Assembly (NCBI RefSeq): GCF_003075095.1
Contig: NZ_QCZF01000011.1
Span: 1 to 64,000, forward strand
DNA: 64,000 nucleotides
Direction: 5' to 3'
DNA from: Blastococcus litoris
GTDB lineage: Bacteria > Actinomycetota > Actinomycetes > Mycobacteriales > Geodermatophilaceae
Shown here: piece by piece, positions 11,292 to 23,238 of the stretch
Layout of the letters: every line of letters starts with the position of its first letter
How positions within the stretch are numbered: position 1 is the first letter of the stretch
The notes under the pieces: model-generated
Told to the model about the DNA's origin: nothing
Databases searched by the model: none
What the model saw: only the letters and a program-made list of their open reading frames with translations
Position numbers and translations under genes: made by a program

Positions 11292-11329
11292 AGGTGCCTC
11301 GCGCCAGCATGCTTCTCGTAGTCGCCTAG
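11288..11329 (+). CDS. ilvB leader peptide (attenuator sensor)
   Basis: A short frame ending MLLVVA-stop: ATG 11309 is followed by two Leu and two Val codons, Ala, and TAG at 11327. Upstream in-frame GTGs at 11288 and 11294 would give up to 13 residues (MQVPRASMLLVVA). GTG 11294 falls at the predicted transcription start. It precedes a hairpin and a strong terminator just before ilvB, which is the standard layout of ribosome-mediated attenuation. Shortage of leucyl- or valyl-tRNA would stall the ribosome on the control codons. The role is inferred from layout and codon content. Confidence 0.75.
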   Translation: MQVPRASMLLVVA

Positions 11330-11353
11330 CGCGCCGGTCCTGCGACCGACGCG
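11330..11353 (+). promoter_or_regulatory. Pause-type hairpin of the ilvB attenuator
   Basis: CGCG (11330-11333) and CGGTC (11335-11339) pair with GACCG (11344-11348) and CGCG (11350-11353) around a 4-base loop. It starts directly after the leader stop codon, so a ribosome at the control codons would mask its left arm. Confidence 0.55.
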
Positions 11354-11356
11354 CTG

Positions 11357-11389
11357 ACCCCTCCGTGCCTGTGGCACGAGGGGTTTTTT
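11357..11389 (+). terminator. Rho-independent terminator of the ilvB attenuator
   Basis: ACCCCTCCGTGCC pairs with GGCACGAGGGGT with one bulged C, followed by six T. It lies 55 bases before the ilvB ATG and downstream of the leader peptide, so it can only act as a regulated terminator. Confidence 0.85.
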
Positions 11390-11443
11390 GTTGCCCACGC
11401 CCCACCCGCTCCCTCGACGTTGCAAGGCCAGGAGAACGCCGCG

Positions 11444-13354
11444 ATGACCACCACCCCGAGCGAGCCCGCCGCTCGCCACTCCTCAGGGGACCCGGCCGCC
11501 CGGGACGCTGCCACCCGCGAGGCGGCGGCCGCCCTCGCCGGTGTCGAGACCACCGCCCGGTCCGTCGCCGAGGCCGCCGCCCAGCCGGCGACCGGCATCA
11601 CCGGGGCGCAGAGCCTCATCCGTTCCCTCGAAGCGGTCGGGGTCGAGGTCATCTTCGGCATCCCGGGCGGGGCGATCCTGCCCGCGTACGACCCGCTGTT
11701 CGACTCGTCGGTGCGCCACGTCCTCGTGCGGCACGAGCAGGGCGCCGGGCACGCCGCCACCGGGTACGCGCAGGCCACCGGCAAGGTCGGCGTCTGCATG
11801 GCGACGTCCGGCCCGGGCGCGACCAACCTGGTCACCCCGCTGGCCGACGCGCACATGGACTCGGTGCCGATCGTCGCGATCACCGGCCAGGTGCCCAGCC
11901 GCTCGATCGGCACGGACGCCTTCCAGGAGGCGGACATCCGCGGCATCACCATGCCGGTGACCAAGCACAACTTCCTCATCACCGACCCGGACGAGATCCC
12001 GCAGCGGATCGCCGAGGCCTTCCACCTGGCCGCCACCGGCCGCCCCGGCCCCGTGCTGGTCGACATCTCCAAGGACGCCCTCCAGGCGAGCACCGACTTC
12101 TCCTGGCCGCCGCGCCTGGACCTGCCCGGCTACAAGCCGACCACCCGGCCGCACGGCAAGCAGGTCCGCGAGGCCGCCGCGCTGCTCGCCGCCGCGCGGC
12201 AGCCGGTGCTCTACGTCGGTGGCGGCGTGCTCAAGGCCGCGGCCACCGAGGAGCTGGCCGAGCTGGCCGCGCTCACCGGCGCGCCGGTCGTCACCACGCT
12301 GATGGCCCGGGGCGCGTTCCCCGACAGCCACCCGCAGAACCTCGGCATGCCGGGCATGCACGGCAACGTCACCGCGGTCACCGCGCTGCAGAAGGCCGAC
12401 CTGCTGGTGGCCCTCGGCGCCCGGTTCGACGACCGCGTGACCGGCGACCTGGCCAGCTTCGCCCCGCACGCGCAGGTCATCCACGCCGACATCGACCCCG
12501 CCGAGATCGGCAAGAACCGCAAGGCCGACGTCCCGATCGTGGGCGACGCCAAGGAGACCATCGGCCAGCTGGTCGAGGCGCTGCGCGGCGAGCAGGAGGC
12601 CGGCCGCACCCCGGACCTCGCCGCCTGGTGGGCCCAGCTGGACGACTGGCGGACCCGCTACCCGCTCGGCTACGACTGGCCCGAGGACGGCTCGCTGTCG
12701 CCGCAGTACGTGATCGAGCGGCTGGGCGCCATCGCCGGCCCCGACGCGATCTACGCCGCGGGCGTCGGCCAGCACCAGATGTGGGCCGCCCAGTTCGTGA
12801 AGTACGAGAAGCCGGGCACGTGGCTCAACAGCGGCGGCCTCGGGACCATGGGCTACGCCGTCCCCGCCGCCATGGGCGCCAAGTACGGCTGCCCGGAGAC
12901 GACGGTGTGGGCCATCGACGGCGACGGCTGCTTCCAGATGACCAACCAGGAGCTCGCCACCTGCGCCATGGAGGGCATCCCGGTCAAGGTCGCCGTCATC
13001 AACAACGGCAACCTGGGCATGGTGCGGCAGTGGCAGACGCTCTTCTACGAGGGCCGCTATTCCAACACCAAGCTGCACGCCCGGAACCCCGACGGGACGC
13101 CGAAGCCGGTGCGCATCCCCGACTTCGTGACCCTGGCCGAGGCGCTCGGGTGCGTGGGGCTGCGGTGCGAGACCAAGGACGACGTCGACGCGGTCATCGA
13201 GAAGGCCATGTCGATCGACGACGCCCCGGTGGTCATCGACTTCGTCGTCGGCCACGACGCCCAGGTGTGGCCGATGGTCGCCGCCGGCGCCAGCAACGAC
13301 GACATCCTCGCCGCGCGAGACGTGCGGCCCGTGTTCGGAGAGGGCCAGGTCTAG
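11444..13354 (+). CDS. ilvB: Acetolactate synthase, large (catalytic) subunit
   Basis: A 636-residue thiamine-diphosphate enzyme joining two pyruvates, or pyruvate and 2-oxobutyrate, at the first common step of branched-chain synthesis. The N-terminal 45 residues are low-complexity Ala/Glu-rich. The catalytic Glu region is [19 protein letters not shown], the FAD/middle domain is in the centre, and the ThDP motif is [17 protein letters not shown] 11444 follows AGGAGA at 8 bases. It is first in the operon with ilvN (2-base gap) and ilvC, and is controlled by the leader-peptide attenuator just upstream. Confidence 0.97.
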
Positions 13355-18301: not shown

Positions 18302-19324
18302 ATGCGCTTGGCAGTGATCGCCGGAGACGGGATCGGCCCCGAGGTGGTGGCCGAGGGCCTCAAGGTCCTGCGGGAGGTGGCTCCCGACATCGAGCCCACG
18401 CACTACGACCTGGGCGCGATGCGCTGGCAGCGGACGGGTGAGCTGCTGCCCGACACCGTCCTCGACGAGCTGCGCGGGCACGACGCGATCCTGCTCGGCG
18501 CGATCGGCGACCCGAGCGTCCCGCCGGGCATCCTCGAGCGGGGCCTGCTGCTGCGGTTGCGCTTCGAGCTCGACCACCACGTCAACCTGCGCCCGGCGAA
18601 GCTCTACGACGGCGTCACCAGCCCGCTGGCCGACCCGGGACCGATCGACATGCTCTGCGTCCGCGAGGGCACCGAGGGGCCCTACGTGGGCAACGGCGGG
18701 GTCCTGCGCAAGGACACGCCGCAGGAGATCGCCACCGAGGTCAGCCTCAACACCGCCTTCGGCGTCGAACGGGTGGTCCGCTACGCCTTCGAGCGTGCCG
18801 TCGCCCGCCCCCGCAAGCACCTCACCCTGATCCACAAGACCAACGTGCTGACCCACGCGGGCGGGCTCTGGTCGCGGGTGGTCGAGGAGGTGTCCGCGGA
18901 GTTCCCCGAGGTCACCGTGGCCTACCAGCACGTCGACGCCGCCTCGATGTTCTTCATCACCGACCCGGGCCGCTACGACGTGATCGTCACCGACAACCTC
19001 TTCGGCGACATCGTCACCGACGTCGCTGCGGCGGTGACCGGCGGCATCGGGCTGGCCGCCAGCGGCAACCTCGACGCGTCGGGCACCAACCCGAGCATGT
19101 TCGAGCCGGTGCACGGCTCGGCCCCGGACATCGCCGGGCAGGGCATCGCCGACCCCACCGCGACGGTGCTCTCCGTCGGTCTGCTCCTCGAGCACCTGGG
19201 CCGCACCGAGCAGGCGAGGAAGGTCAACGCCGCCGTGGCGTTCGACCTCTCCACCCGCTCGCCGCAGGGACCGGTGCGCACCACCGACGTGGGCGACCGG
19301 CTCGCCGCCCTCGCCGGGGGTTAG
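18302..19324 (+). CDS. leuB: 3-isopropylmalate dehydrogenase
   Basis: A 340-residue isocitrate/isopropylmalate dehydrogenase family member, oxidising and decarboxylating 3-isopropylmalate in leucine synthesis. The substrate-binding region [27 protein letters not shown] is of the isopropylmalate type. The metal site appears in [30 protein letters not shown], and NAD binding in [21 protein letters not shown] 18302 follows CCAGGAG. It is probably co-transcribed with serA. The stop overlaps the convergent gene at 19321 by four bases. Confidence 0.96.
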
Positions 19325-19722
19325 GCCGGCGGATCGGTCAGGAGCAGGTCGCCCACCGGCACGGGCAGCCGGGCCTGCGCCCGGAGCTCGGCGGGCTCGC
19401 CCCACTCGAGCCTGACCCGGCAGCCGGTCGGCGAGGCCTCGACCAGCACGACGGCCGACCAGGCCCACTCCTCCGCGGGCTGCCCGGCGTCGGTCCCGTC
19501 GGTCAGCGGCGCCGGCAGCCGGCACCACCACCGGCGGTCGAGCGCGGCCAGGCCGTGCGATCGCAGGTGCGCCGTCGCCGTCGCCCGCTCCTGGGCCGGC
19601 CCGAGCGCCGTCCCCACCAGGGTGGTGGGGACGACGAGGTCCGGCGAGCCGTCCGGCACCAGGTAGCCGACGTGCTCGCCGTCCTCGGGGCGGTGCACCG
19701 GGTGCCAGTCCGTCGGGATCAC
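19321..19722 (-). CDS. Conserved hypothetical protein
   Basis: A 133-residue soluble protein starting [25 protein letters not shown]. It has acidic and Trp-rich stretches ([23 protein letters not shown]) and beta-like hydrophobic patterns but no motif I recognise. GTG 19722 is preceded 6 bases upstream by TAGACA, a possible leaderless -10. It converges on leuB and diverges from the cimA leader. Coding is supported by frame length and codon bias. No function is proposed. Confidence 0.6.
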
Positions 19723-19805
19723 CGGGGTTGTCTACCTGGCCGCAGGTCGCCCGTCCTCCGATTTCCGGGGCGGGGGACCGCCACGGCGCGGGTGAGCGTG
19801 CTTTC

Positions 19806-19847
19806 ATGGTGGCGATGCACACCGTCGGCACGATCATCATCAGCTAG
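19806..19847 (+). CDS. cimA leader peptide with three Ile codons (attenuator sensor)
   Basis: ATG 19806 opens a 13-codon frame reading MVAMHTVGTIIIS-stop, with ATC ATC ATC at 19833-19841 and TAG at 19845. A perfect 10-base-pair hairpin starts on the stop codon and a T-tailed terminator follows, all before cimA. This is the layout of translation-coupled attenuation. The end-product codon, isoleucine, matches the pathway of the downstream gene. The role is inferred from layout and codon content. Confidence 0.75.
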   Translation: MVAMHTVGTIIIS

Positions 19848-19874
19848 CGCGCAGTCACCACCCCGACTGCGCGC
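19847..19874 (+). promoter_or_regulatory. Perfect 10-bp hairpin of the cimA attenuator
   Basis: GCGCGCAGTC (19847-19856) pairs with GACTGCGCGC (19865-19874) around ACCACCCC. A ribosome stalled on the Ile codons would cover the left arm. The freed loop bases ACCACCCCG could then pair with the CGGGG of the terminator's 3' arm. Confidence 0.65.
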
Positions 19875-19875
19875 C

Positions 19876-19902
19876 GACCTCCCGTACCCGGGGGGTCTTT
19901 TT
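19876..19902 (+). terminator. Rho-independent terminator of the cimA attenuator
   Basis: GACCTCCCG pairs with CGGGGGGTC (one G-T pair) around TACC, followed by five T. It ends 35 bases before the cimA ATG. Confidence 0.8.
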
Positions 19903-19937
19903 CGTGTTCGGGCCGGATCACCGCTCCAGGAGTCCCC

Positions 19938-21539
19938 ATGACCAGCACCGACTTCCACGTCTTCGACACGACCCTGCGCGACGGCGCCCAGCGCGAGGGC
20001 GTCAGCTACTCGGTGGCCGACAAGCTCGCCGTCGCGCGGCTCCTCGACGAGATCGGGGTGGGGTTCATCGAGGGCGGCTGGCCGGGGGCCCTGCCGAAGG
20101 ACACCGAGTTCTTCGCGCGTGCCCGCGCCGAGCTCAAGCTGCGGCACGCCCAGCTGGTCGCGTTCGGGGCGACCCGCAAGGCCGGGGTCCGCGTCGAGGA
20201 GGACCCGCAGGTCCGCGCCCTGCTCGACGCCGAGACGCCGGTCGTGTGCCTGGTCGCCAAGTCCGACGTCCGGCACGTGCGGGAGGCGCTGCGCACCACG
20301 CTCGAGGAGAACCTCGCCATGGTCGCCGACACCGTCGAGTTCTTCGTGGCGCACGGCCGCCGGGTGTTCCTCGACTGCGAGCACTTCTTCGACGGCTACG
20401 CCGCCGACCCCGACTACGGGGTCCGGGTCCTCGAGACGGCGTTCGCGGCGGGAGCCGAGGTGGGCGTCCTGTGCGACACCAACGGCGGGATGCTGCCGAT
20501 GGGCGTCGGCCGCGTGGTCGCCGAGGTGCGCTCGCGGACGGCCGGCAGGCTCGGCATCCACTGCCAGGACGACACCGGGTGCGCGGTGGCGAACACCCTC
20601 GCCGCCGTCGAGGCGGGCGTCACGCACGTCCAGGGCACGGCCAACGGCTACGGCGAGCGGGCCGGCAACGCCGACACGTTCGCGCTCATCGGGAACCTGG
20701 TCACCAAGATGGGTCTGCCCGTCGTGCCGGCGGAGTGCCTGCCCGAGCTGCAGCGGGTGAGCCACGCGATCGCCGAGCTGGCCAACATCGCCCCCGACGA
20801 GCACCAGCCCTTCGTCGGCGCCTCCGCGTTCGCCCACAAGGCGGGTCTGCACGCCAGCGCCATCAAGGTGCGCCCCGAGCTCTACAACCACCTCGACCCG
20901 GCCGTCGTCGGCAACGACATGCGCATCCTGGTCACCGAGATGGCCGGCCGCGCCTCCGTCGAGCTCAAGGGCCGGGAACTCGGCGTGGACCTCGCGGGGC
21001 ACGGCGACGCGATCGGCCGCGTCGTCGACCAGGTGAAGGTGCTCGAGGCCGACGGCTGGTCGTTCGAGGCCGCGGACGCGTCGTTCGAGCTGCTGCTGCG
21101 TGCGCAGCTGCCCGAGGCGCCGCCGCCGCTGTTCGAGCTGGAGAGCTACCGCACCTCCGTCGAGCACTGGGGCAACGGGGTGGTCGTCAGCGAGGCGACG
21201 GTGAAGGTGCACCTGCCGAACCCCGACGGCACCCGCGAGCGGGTCATCAGCACCGGCGAGGGCAACGGGCCGGTCAACGCCCTGGACAACGCGCTGCGCC
21301 AGGCGCTGGTCAGCCGCTACCCGCAGCTGGCAGACGTGTCGCTGGCCGACTACAAGGTCCGCATCCTCGGGTGGAAGGGCGGCACCAGCGCGACCACGCG
21401 GGTGCTCATCGACACCACGGACGGGGTGGGGGAGTGGACCACCGTCGGCGTCCACGCCAACATCGTCGAGGCCTCGTGGCACGCGCTGGTCGACGCGCTC
21501 GCCTACGCCGTCCTGCGCCGGCCGTCCACGGCCGGGTGA
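19938..21539 (+). CDS. cimA: Citramalate synthase
   Basis: A 533-residue HMGL/LeuA-family enzyme. It begins FHVFDTTLRDGAQREGVSYS, the metal- and substrate-binding signature of CimA rather than LeuA. HCQDDTGCAVANTLAAVEAG and the HxH-type HKAGLHASAIKV region follow. The C-terminal LeuA_dimer regulatory domain is present (about 400-530). It condenses pyruvate with acetyl-CoA to (R)-citramalate, giving 2-oxobutyrate for isoleucine without threonine. The product is then processed by LeuCD and LeuB, all encoded in this window. ATG 19938 has CAGGAG upstream. Control by the Ile attenuator just before it is inferred. Confidence 0.94.
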   Translation: MTSTDFHVFDTTLRDGAQREGVSYSVADKLAVARLLDEIGVGFIEGGWPGALPKDTEFFARARAELKLRHAQLVAFGATRKAGVRVEEDPQVRALLDAETPVVCLVAKSDVRHVREALRTTLEENLAMVADTVEFFVAHGRRVFLDCEHFFDGYAADPDYGVRVLETAFAAGAEVGVLCDTNGGMLPMGVGRVVAEVRSRTAGRLGIHCQDDTGCAVANTLAAVEAGVTHVQGTANGYGERAGNADTFALIGNLVTKMGLPVVPAECLPELQRVSHAIAELANIAPDEHQPFVGASAFAHKAGLHASAIKVRPELYNHLDPAVVGNDMRILVTEMAGRASVELKGRELGVDLAGHGDAIGRVVDQVKVLEADGWSFEAADASFELLLRAQLPEAPPPLFELESYRTSVEHWGNGVVVSEATVKVHLPNPDGTRERVISTGEGNGPVNALDNALRQALVSRYPQLADVSLADYKVRILGWKGGTSATTRVLIDTTDGVGEWTTVGVHANIVEASWHALVDALAYAVLRRPSTAG

Positions 21540-21540
21540 G

Positions 21541-21870
21541 TCAGCCGCGCGGCTGGATCTCGCCCATCGGTCCCCAGCCGGGGACGTCGGCGGCGTCGAC
21601 GTAGATGATCTGCGGCTGGGCCGCCACCAGGTCGGGTGCCTTCTCGACGAAGTCCGTGAAGGCCTGCGTGCGGACGTGGGCCGCCCCGGCGTCGGCGTCG
21701 CGGAACCCCTCGACGCACACCCACGTGCCCGGCTCCTCGACGCTGCGCGACCACTCGAAGAACAGGCTCCCCTCCTCGGCGTTCACCGCGCGGGCGTAGT
21801 CGGCGGCCAGCGCCGCCCACTCGTCCTCGCGCTCGGGCCGGACGGGCATCTTCACGACGATGAGAATCAC
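21541..21870 (-). CDS. Antibiotic biosynthesis monooxygenase (ABM) family protein
   Basis: A 109-residue dimeric ferredoxin-like-fold protein of the ABM/putative quinol monooxygenase family. The typical elements are the N-terminal strand ILIVVKMPVRPE, EEGSLFFEWSRSVEEPGTWVCVEGFRD, and the HVRTQAFTDFVEKAPDL helix. Family members include cofactor-free oxygenases, but many have unknown substrates. GTG 21870 has GAGG 7 bases upstream. It converges on cimA with a one-base gap. No pathway is implied by its neighbours. Confidence 0.82.
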   Translation of the reverse strand: MILIVVKMPVRPEREDEWAALAADYARAVNAEEGSLFFEWSRSVEEPGTWVCVEGFRDADAGAAHVRTQAFTDFVEKAPDLVAAQPQIIYVDAADVPGWGPMGEIQPRG

Positions 21871-21989
21871 GGGAGTTCCTCACTGTCGTGGCGAGCGGGG
21901 CCCGAAGGGCTCCGCGCAGCCACGACGAGACGGCTCAGCGGGACGGGGGTACGGCACCTGGCCGCGGTGTCGGCCGGAGGCCGACGGTG

Positions 21990-22370
21990 TCACAGCGGGT
22001 CGAGGCGCCGCTTCAGCAGGCAGAACTCGTTGCCCTCCGGGTCGGCGAGCACGTGCCAGTTCATCTCCGGCGTCTGCCCGACGTCGGTCCGGGTGGCGCC
22101 CAGCCCCAGCAGCCGCTCCAGCTCGGCGTCCTGGTCCCGATCGGTCGGGTTGACGTCGACGTGCAGCCGCACCTTCCCGGGCGTGGGGTCGGGCACCGGC
22201 GCGAACACGAGAGTGGGTGCGGCGCCGCCGAAGCCGACCTCGGGCCCGATCTCCACCGCGCCGTCGTCCTCCCGGCCCAGGACCCGGTAGTCCAGGACGG
22301 CGGCCCAGAAGGCGGCCAGCGCCTCGGGGTCGCGACTGTCGACGACGAGCTCGGAGAAGCGGCAGGCCAT
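21990..22370 (-). CDS. VOC (glyoxalase/bleomycin-resistance) family protein
   Basis: A 126-residue single-module VOC protein. It starts FSELVVDSRDPEALAAFWAAVLDY, the usual first beta-alpha unit, and ends with WHVLADPEGNEFCLLKR, the conserved metal-side strand with Glu. Such proteins are dimeric metalloenzymes or binding proteins of diverse function. ATG 22370 lies 8 bases after TACCGT on the same strand, suggesting a leaderless message. It diverges from the FAH-family gene at 22426. The substrate is unknown. Confidence 0.82.
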   Translation of the reverse strand: MACRFSELVVDSRDPEALAAFWAAVLDYRVLGREDDGAVEIGPEVGFGGAAPTLVFAPVPDPTPGKVRLHVDVNPTDRDQDAELERLLGLGATRTDVGQTPEMNWHVLADPEGNEFCLLKRRLDPL

Positions 22371-22378
22371 GGCGGTAG

Positions 22379-22384
22379 ACGGTA
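22379..22384 (-). promoter_or_regulatory. -10-like hexamer of the VOC gene
   Basis: TACCGT on the minus strand, 8 bases before ATG 22370. Confidence 0.4.
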
Positions 22385-22413
22385 GGGCGCCGGGGCGGCC
22401 CCCGCCCGGCGAC

Positions 22414-22419
22414 TAACCT
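22414..22419 (+). promoter_or_regulatory. -10-like hexamer of the FAH-family gene
   Basis: TAACCT ends exactly 6 bases before GTG 22426, predicting a leaderless transcript that could continue through gltX and the CPBP gene. Confidence 0.5.
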
Positions 22420-22425
22420 CGCCGT

Positions 22426-23238
22426 GTGCGCATCGTCCGTTTCGCCTCGCCCCAGGGCATGTCCTTCGGCGTCCTCGACGGGGACGGCCAGGTGGCCCAG
22501 ATCGAGGGCCACCCCTTCGGCCGCATCTCCTTCACCGGCGCCCGCTTCGCGCAGGCCGACATCCGGCTGCTCTCGCCGATCCTCCCCAGCAAGGTGGTGT
22601 GCGTCGGAAAGAACTACGCCGCCCACATCGCGGAGATGAACACCGGCGACGCCCCCAAGGAGCCGCTGCTGTTCCTGAAGCCGTCGACGGCGGTGATCGG
22701 CCCCGGTGACGCGATCCGCATCCCGCCCGGCAGCACCAACGTCCACCACGAGGCCGAGCTGGCCGTGGTCATCGGCGCCCGGGGCGCCCGCAACGTCACG
22801 CCGGAGCAGGCCGGCGCGAGCATCTTCGGCTACACGATCGGCAACGACGTCACCGAGCGGGACATGCAGAAGAGCGACGGGCAGTGGACCCGCGCCAAGG
22901 GCTTCGACTCGTTCTGCCCGATCGGCCCGTGGATCGAGACCGACCTCCCCGGGCTGGGGCTCGACCCCGCCGACCTCGAGGTCACGTGCACCGTCGACGG
23001 CGAGCCCCGCCAGCAGGGCCGCACCAGCCAGCTGATCTTCGACGTGCCCACCCTGATCTCCTACATCTCCCGGGTCATGACGCTGCTGCCCGGTGACGTC
23101 GTGCTCACCGGGACGCCGTCGGGCGTCGGGCCGATCCGGCCCGGCCAGCAGGTGGAGGTCACCATCCAGGGGCTGGGCTCGCTGACCAACGGCGTGGCCG
23201 CCGCCGAGGGCGTCTCGACGGCGGGCGGCGCCCGATGA
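22426..23238 (+). CDS. Fumarylacetoacetate hydrolase family protein
   Basis: A 270-residue protein of the FAH superfamily. The core begins [17 protein letters not shown] (about residue 56). Metal ligands are expected in [11 protein letters not shown] and [13 protein letters not shown], and the C-terminal [15 protein letters not shown] is diagnostic. Members hydrolyse or decarboxylate acylpyruvate-type compounds; in actinobacteria this gene next to gltX is conserved but its substrate is unsettled. GTG 22426 is set by the TAACCT hexamer. It overlaps gltX by ATGA, so the two are coupled. Confidence 0.88.

Follow-up and report, generated by a model that had tools for sequence, protein, structure and literature searches.

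The window, a 64,000-nt stretch of Blastococcus litoris contig NZ_QCZF01000011.1, contains a citramalate synthase gene, cimA, preceded by three closely packed features: a short open reading frame (ORF) with a run of isoleucine codons, a perfect hairpin (hairpin 1) that begins on the stop codon of this ORF, and a T-tailed intrinsic terminator (Table 1). An earlier inspection of this DNA (the original prediction) had described all three, and each was found where it had been placed. Hairpin 1 and the terminator are 1 nt apart, and 35 nt lie between the end of the terminator and cimA. RNA spanning positions 19845–19902 folded with both hairpins formed together at −38.1 kcal/mol, a stability reached by 0 of 200 shuffled sequences, and a terminator scan of 4 kb returned three overlapping predictions of the cimA-leader terminator (0.5 expected). 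Between leuB and cimA, the minus strand also carries an ORF of 133 aa (19321–19722), for which NCBIfam gave no match up to E 1e-10.

Table 1. Coordinates of leader features and cimA in the window
Feature	Position	Strand	Basis or detail
cimA, citramalate synthase	19938..21539	+	TIGR00977, 610 bits (cut-off 450)
Leader ORF MHTVGTIIIS*, 10 codons and TAG	19815..19847	+	Sequence reading and relatives
Ile codons ATC ATC ATC	19833..19841	+	First codon 14 nt upstream of hairpin base
Closing codons of leader ORF: AGC, then TAG	TAG at 19845-19847	+	Sequence
Hairpin 1, putative sensor/antiterminator	19847..19874	+	Perfect 10 bp; covariation
Hairpin 1 arms	19847-19856 / 19865-19874		5' arm begins at the G of TAG
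Hairpin 1 loop	19857-19864		
Intrinsic terminator	19876..19902	+	9 bp, loop of 4, T-run; terminator scan, fold, compensations
Terminator arms	19876-19884 / 19889-19897		T-run 19898-19902
-10-like box TTTCAT, probable leaderless promoter	19802..19807	+	Sequence; motif in 77 leaders
Homologous ilvB leader: GTG...ATG CTT CTC GTA GTC GCC TAG, hairpin, terminator	11294..11389	+	R1 match 11315-11392, 45.9 bits, E 6.4e-11

The leader ORF had originally been opened at the ATG at 19806, which does give a frame of 13 codons, but the ATG at 19815 is more likely the start, because the upstream ATG overlaps the −10-like TTTCAT, in the position of a −10 box, and because a TGTGnCAnACT-type motif, enriched at −17 to −7 across 77 leaders, stops roughly 7 nt short of the leader start. 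The related loci L007, L015, and L047 offer only an in-frame start giving 10 or 11 codons. A sigma-70 consensus scan around the cimA leader found no promoter. Judged from sequence, a leaderless or almost leaderless transcript is probable, and leader peptides of Streptomyces lividans, including IlvL, were reported as leaderless in the accessible part of PMC8079986.

Conservation and Architecture of the Leader

A near search covered 61 genomes; among 56 strongly matching CimA loci whose upstream regions were inspected, 47 carried the element. Counted by genome among carriers of a CimA orthologue, it was present in 15 of 15 members of the genus and 31 of 35 members of the family, figures that leave out two genomes (G007 and G035) in which the CimA match was not strong. 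The nine near loci without it were L026, L029, L030, L031, L039, L040, L048, L050, and L051. Across 30 family loci, mean pairwise identity rose from 0.36 upstream of the leader through 0.65 in the early leader ORF and 0.78 in the Ile region to 0.88 in hairpin 1 and 0.90 in the terminator, then dropped to 0.35 between the terminator and cimA. The alignment of relatives that the original prediction had proposed as a check therefore came out as anticipated, with the leader and both hairpins kept while the flanks drift. In a set of 80 contig loci, carriers included Blastococcus, Modestobacter, Geodermatophilus, Klenkia, Paractinoplanes, Micromonospora, Pseudonocardia, and Thermobifida; several loci lacked the element (e.g., L086, L092, L098, L102, L106, and L118), and L066 and L076 stop at a contig edge. 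The Streptomyces version (L123–L136) has a long hairpin 1 loop, which in S. muensis (L134), whose element was read in its entirety, holds an inner hairpin; the terminator still directly follows the GCGCGC base.

For a class-wide view we built a covariance model, R1, from 57 cimA leaders (alignment A1, which omits 34 of 91 candidate leaders under a near-duplicate limit) and applied it to 138 evenly drawn genomes, accepting CimA matches at E ≤ 1e-80 and R1 matches at E ≤ 0.01. CimA was found in 108 of the 138, and the R1 element lay upstream in 78 of these 108, a lower bound given that the stricter filters of the class scan lose weak matches. The R1 match lay 11–228 nt upstream of the CimA match in these 78 class leaders. 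Two further carriers were recognized by eye, G072 (gene split over contigs) and G155 (missed by the model), which reduces the CimA genomes lacking a match from 30 of 108 to 28; among the latter are family f32, the small-genome family f40, and G134, in which the contig does not extend over the upstream region.

At least one Ile codon was present in all 78 class leaders and at least two in 71, leaving seven with a single codon, although the model itself contains Ile columns and biases class counts toward Ile leaders. Over 100 shuffle rounds, chance produced leader ORFs with two or more Ile codons in 0.95 of the 78 on average and never in more than 4. As a check on the bias, a structure-only set retrieved with hairpin and terminator gave 100 distinct matches, 95 with at least one and 91 with at least two Ile codons, starting mostly at −14, −11, and −8 from the hairpin base; the five without were L081 (unrelated hairpins) and four Streptomyces loci in which the script placed the wrong arm. 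The predicted Ile-codon leader and terminator in front of cimA is supported, with codons mostly 8–14 nt before the hairpin base. In 74 of 78 class leaders, the first Ile codon lay 11–14 nt before the base. The stop codon was at −5 to −2 in 50 of the leaders, and in 28 it fell within the hairpin, by 7, 10, or 16 nt. ORF lengths lean toward 10 codons by construction, as the codon rule takes the in-frame start nearest to that length. Because the first Ile codon holds to −11 to −14 while the stop codon shifts, the constant spacing is that from control codon to hairpin rather than from stop to hairpin, as would be expected if the stalled ribosome is what matters.

Hairpin 1 covaries in A1. Two-sided changes occurred in 6 of 10 pairs vs. 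4.8 for shuffled alignments, 27 of 500 of which reached that number, and the number of cells with such changes was 76 vs. 22.6 (0 of 500). The covariation score was 0.336 vs. 0.105 in shuffled alignments (0 of 500) and collapsed when the register was slid. The count of further pair types did not exceed that of shuffles (338 of 500), and the four outermost pairs, being invariant, are uninformative on pairing either way. Terminator pairs −1 to +6 were standard in 72–78 of the 78 class leaders, with compensated forms AGACC/GGTCT, AAACC/GGTTT, and AGGCC/GGCCT; these pairs were counted in a register fixed on the CC of the 5′ arm, since RNAalifold on A1 mis-registers the terminator owing to differing loop lengths. 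The linker between the two hairpins was 0 nt in 43 class leaders, 1 nt in 18, 2 nt in 9, and another length in 8, hence 0–2 nt in 70 of 78; it was 0 nt in 71 of 78 leaders of the near set. Compared with the hairpin 1 span (20–76 nt) and the gap to CimA, both of which vary widely among class leaders, this linker is the tightest spacing.

High GC content, which favors hairpins, and the very short ORF would suit an accidental reading frame lying beside the ordinary terminator of the upstream genes. Such an accident is refuted by the class-wide conservation, the covariation, the codon positions, the drift test, and the excess of terminator predictions over expectation, and we assign it practically no weight. 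The cimA leader element is real and beyond chance.

The Same Scaffold at Other Genes

Although trained on cimA leaders only, R1 also recovered ilvB leaders, including one in the window itself, with Leu-Leu-Val-Val codons before its TAG and the same hairpin base and terminator layout, followed by IlvB from position 11444. In total, 67 R1 matches were not placed at cimA by coordinates. Of these, 44 precede IlvB (tblastn) and nine precede leucyl-tRNA synthetase (L148 and L160 by NCBIfam, with L148, a truncated piece, below the cut-off, and seven by eye). Six precede a threonine ammonia-lyase-like gene, three assigned by NCBIfam below cut-offs (truncated) and three by eye. L141 is a split cimA, and L143 and L166 precede a distant CimA relative, identified as LeuA by NCBIfam for L166. 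The remaining five (L139, L172, L183, L187, and L189) have no assigned target or are likely chance matches. The hairpin-then-terminator layout at the ilvB and leuS loci was judged by eye. On the evidence of homology in sequence and structure, the cimA leader belongs to the actinobacterial ilvB/leuS leader scaffold.

Like the cimA leader, the known actinobacterial ilvB leaders (Streptomyces IlvL, Mycobacterium, and Corynebacterium ilvB-II) consist of a short, often leaderless ORF with branched-chain amino acid codons, a hairpin, and a terminator; they differ in carrying Leu/Val rather than Ile codons and in their target gene. The Streptomyces leuS attenuator (LeuL2), also found by R1, shares the hairpin followed by a terminator but has Leu codons and a tRNA synthetase target. 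The LEU element of leuA works through a Leu-codon run that pairs with the leuA Shine-Dalgarno box, as outlined in the available text of PMC1262725, in contrast to the Ile codons and T-tailed terminator of cimA. That text assigns the LEU element to leuA in most Actinobacteria, yet loci L143 and L166 (family f25), from genomes lacking a strong CimA match, have Leu-codon leaders of the cimA-type scaffold ahead of LeuA-type genes.

All six threonine-dehydratase leaders (L157, L171, L185, L191, L192, and L193) come from family f32, and those inspected have one Ile codon beside Met and Thr. In the nine f32 genomes with CimA, no R1 match was found at cimA in any, even at E up to 1. Because the f32 leaders sit at threonine dehydratase and none at cimA, the distribution suggests that Ile control may have shifted between the two pathway entry enzymes. 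The window genome encodes a threonine ammonia-lyase scoring over its cut-off, with no R1 match nearby, and CimA is therefore probably not its sole route to 2-ketobutyrate. At L139 (G159:C6), a leader MFTPRIII*, a hairpin, and a terminator precede a 112-aa ORF that resembles an ACT-type small subunit by eye and for which NCBIfam returned no family.

Rfam returned no match up to E 5 for positions 18500–22500, sub-threshold matches only for the ilvB leader (e.g., Ms_IGR-5 at 11.0 bits vs. 45), and nothing above the gathering score, with sub-threshold matches only, in eight relatives. The accessible portion of a survey of Actinobacteria (PMC1262725) lists ileS T-boxes and leaders ahead of trp, ilvB, leuA, leuS, and cys genes without mentioning cimA, which is also missing from the eight leader peptides of S. 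lividans in the part of PMC8079986 at hand. No published cimA leader was found in a search of main texts available without subscription. A leader of this gene is apparently undescribed, as the original prediction had supposed; the kind of element is known in Actinobacteria from ilvB and leuS (as covered in the available sections of PMC1262725). The 150 premature transcripts reported for S. clavuligerus (PMC8269248, in part) or the Lopatovskaya 2010 survey may list one.

Proposed Sensing and Relief of Termination

We consider it likely that the cimA leader is an Ile-responsive, ribosome-mediated transcription attenuator built on a scaffold reused at ilvB, leuS, leuA, and sometimes threonine dehydratase. 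If so, transcriptional end-product control would act on the threonine-independent entry into isoleucine synthesis in most of the sampled actinobacteria with CimA, Streptomyces included, and a single leader scaffold would have been re-aimed by codon exchange. Precedents come from the C. glutamicum ilvBNC attenuator (PMC11857589, as excerpted) and from M. tuberculosis ilvB1, for which the available text of PMC13236596 gives a terminated leader transcript, ribosome footprints, and proposed attenuation.

Another possibility is that leader and terminator do control cimA but sense translation rate, ppGpp, or polymerase pausing, with the codons a mere trace of ancestry. According to the accessible part of PMC1262725, exchanging codons of the ilvB leader in S. 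coelicolor was reported to have no effect, and this silence is the main published result against the Ile-sensing reading. On the other side, the codons track the target gene on one scaffold (Ile at cimA, Leu/Val at ilvB, Leu at leuS and leuA), and replacing three Val codons in C. glutamicum abolished valine control according to the portion of PMC11857589 available. We regard sensing of something other than Ile supply as unlikely.

Of the features of a classical attenuator, the leader has the pathway codons and, as a sequence feature, the terminator; a base-paired antiterminator was not found, either from terminator probabilities or among pseudoknots of the loop with the terminator 3′ arm. This sets it apart from the E. 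coli trp, his, and ilv attenuators, which it resembles in having control codons just upstream of a stop codon at which a ribosome would mask the next arm. Published ilvB models assume that antiterminator and terminator have bases in common (PMC11857589, PMC10272879, and PMC13236596, each in the part accessible). A shared-pair antiterminator received no support across the 78 leaders: whether the hairpin arm was free or masked hardly affected the mean terminator probability (0.935 and 0.928, respectively), so that thermodynamic exclusion between hairpin 1 and the terminator is absent, and masking shifted the probability by more than 0.1 only in L233, downward. Inspection of A1, rather than a count, also led us to reject the C. 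glutamicum boundary-trinucleotide model, under which hairpin 1 would extend into the base of the terminator. That overlap model requires a boundary triplet that pairs both ways (PMC11857589, as excerpted), and in the cimA leaders the flanks show mostly A opposite A or C, unpaired, and the codon preceding TAG varies.

The original prediction had instead proposed that the hairpin 1 loop pairs with the terminator 3′ arm, which would form a pseudoknot that blocks the terminator. A loop-to-P2 antiterminator of this type has been proposed for the Corynebacterium ilvB-II motif (PMC10272879, available text), and ACCUCCCC and similar loops within the family match the 5′ arm of the terminator, with 28 loops fitting better than shuffles (0 of 300). 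We compared loops of 3–22 nt, which comprise 64 of the 78 class leaders, and a near set of 78 loops cleared of low-scoring, mis-registered, and duplicate loci. The near set also beat shuffled loops (0 of 300), but loops swapped between leaders did as well in 92 of 300 trials, giving no sign of co-evolution. Class-wide, the fit was 11.31 vs. 11.58 for shuffled loops, which equalled or bettered it in 250 of 300, and swapped loops did as well in 141 of 300. Short loops (ACAC, CAAC, and TACG) allow at most three pairs, L027 and L028 of the window's own family form only three loop pairs with their own terminators, and the window itself offers only five contiguous pairs (ACCCC with GGGGU). As a general antiterminator the loop thus found no support in the class, where it did no better than shuffled loops, and we judge the pseudoknot improbable.

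Because the two hairpins share no pairs and are separated by a linker of 0–2 nt, we propose by elimination that antitermination by the cimA attenuator works through contact. Transcription would start at the leader start codon or immediately beside it, with a ribosome translating the short ORF behind RNA polymerase. A ribosome covers up to 12 nt past the stop codon, according to the accessible part of PMC4833913, and the spacings in the class leaders agree with such a cover. With a 12-nt cover, a ribosome at the stop codon would mask 19847–19859; if its A-site held the first Ile codon (19833), the cover would end at about 19847. Under ample Ile-tRNA, then, a ribosome reaching the stop codon would mask the entire 5′ arm of hairpin 1, the terminator alone would form, and transcription would stop before cimA. 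Under scarce Ile-tRNA, the ribosome would stall at the Ile codons with its front edge only at the hairpin base, and hairpin 1 could fold and thereby report Ile starvation. Once folded, hairpin 1 would abut the base of the terminator and, we infer, spoil its closure sterically or kinetically, with readthrough into cimA. In leader attenuators generally, amino-acid starvation relieves termination, and the presumed response of cimA to Ile supply would run in the same direction. We also considered a pause-hairpin role for hairpin 1.

More tentatively, the cimA leader may represent a class of attenuator whose antiterminator shares no pairs with the terminator, in which a hairpin lying flush (0–2 nt) against the terminator blocks its closure by contact, and in which codon swaps re-aim the scaffold to Ile, Leu, Val, or Thr/Ile across cimA, ilvB, leuA, leuS, and threonine dehydratase; we hold this generalization to be possible, with the balance of our judgment against it. 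The attenuator proposed for cimA, if correct, raises the question of whether a hairpin without shared pairs can act as an antiterminator when it abuts the terminator, and it may bear on why exchanged codons were reported silent in the ilvB leader of S. coelicolor. The S. lividans IlvL peptide, MRTRILVLGKRVG in the available text of PMC8079986, ends in KRVG, which by back-translation only is the readout of a AAGCGCGTCGG-type hairpin arm.
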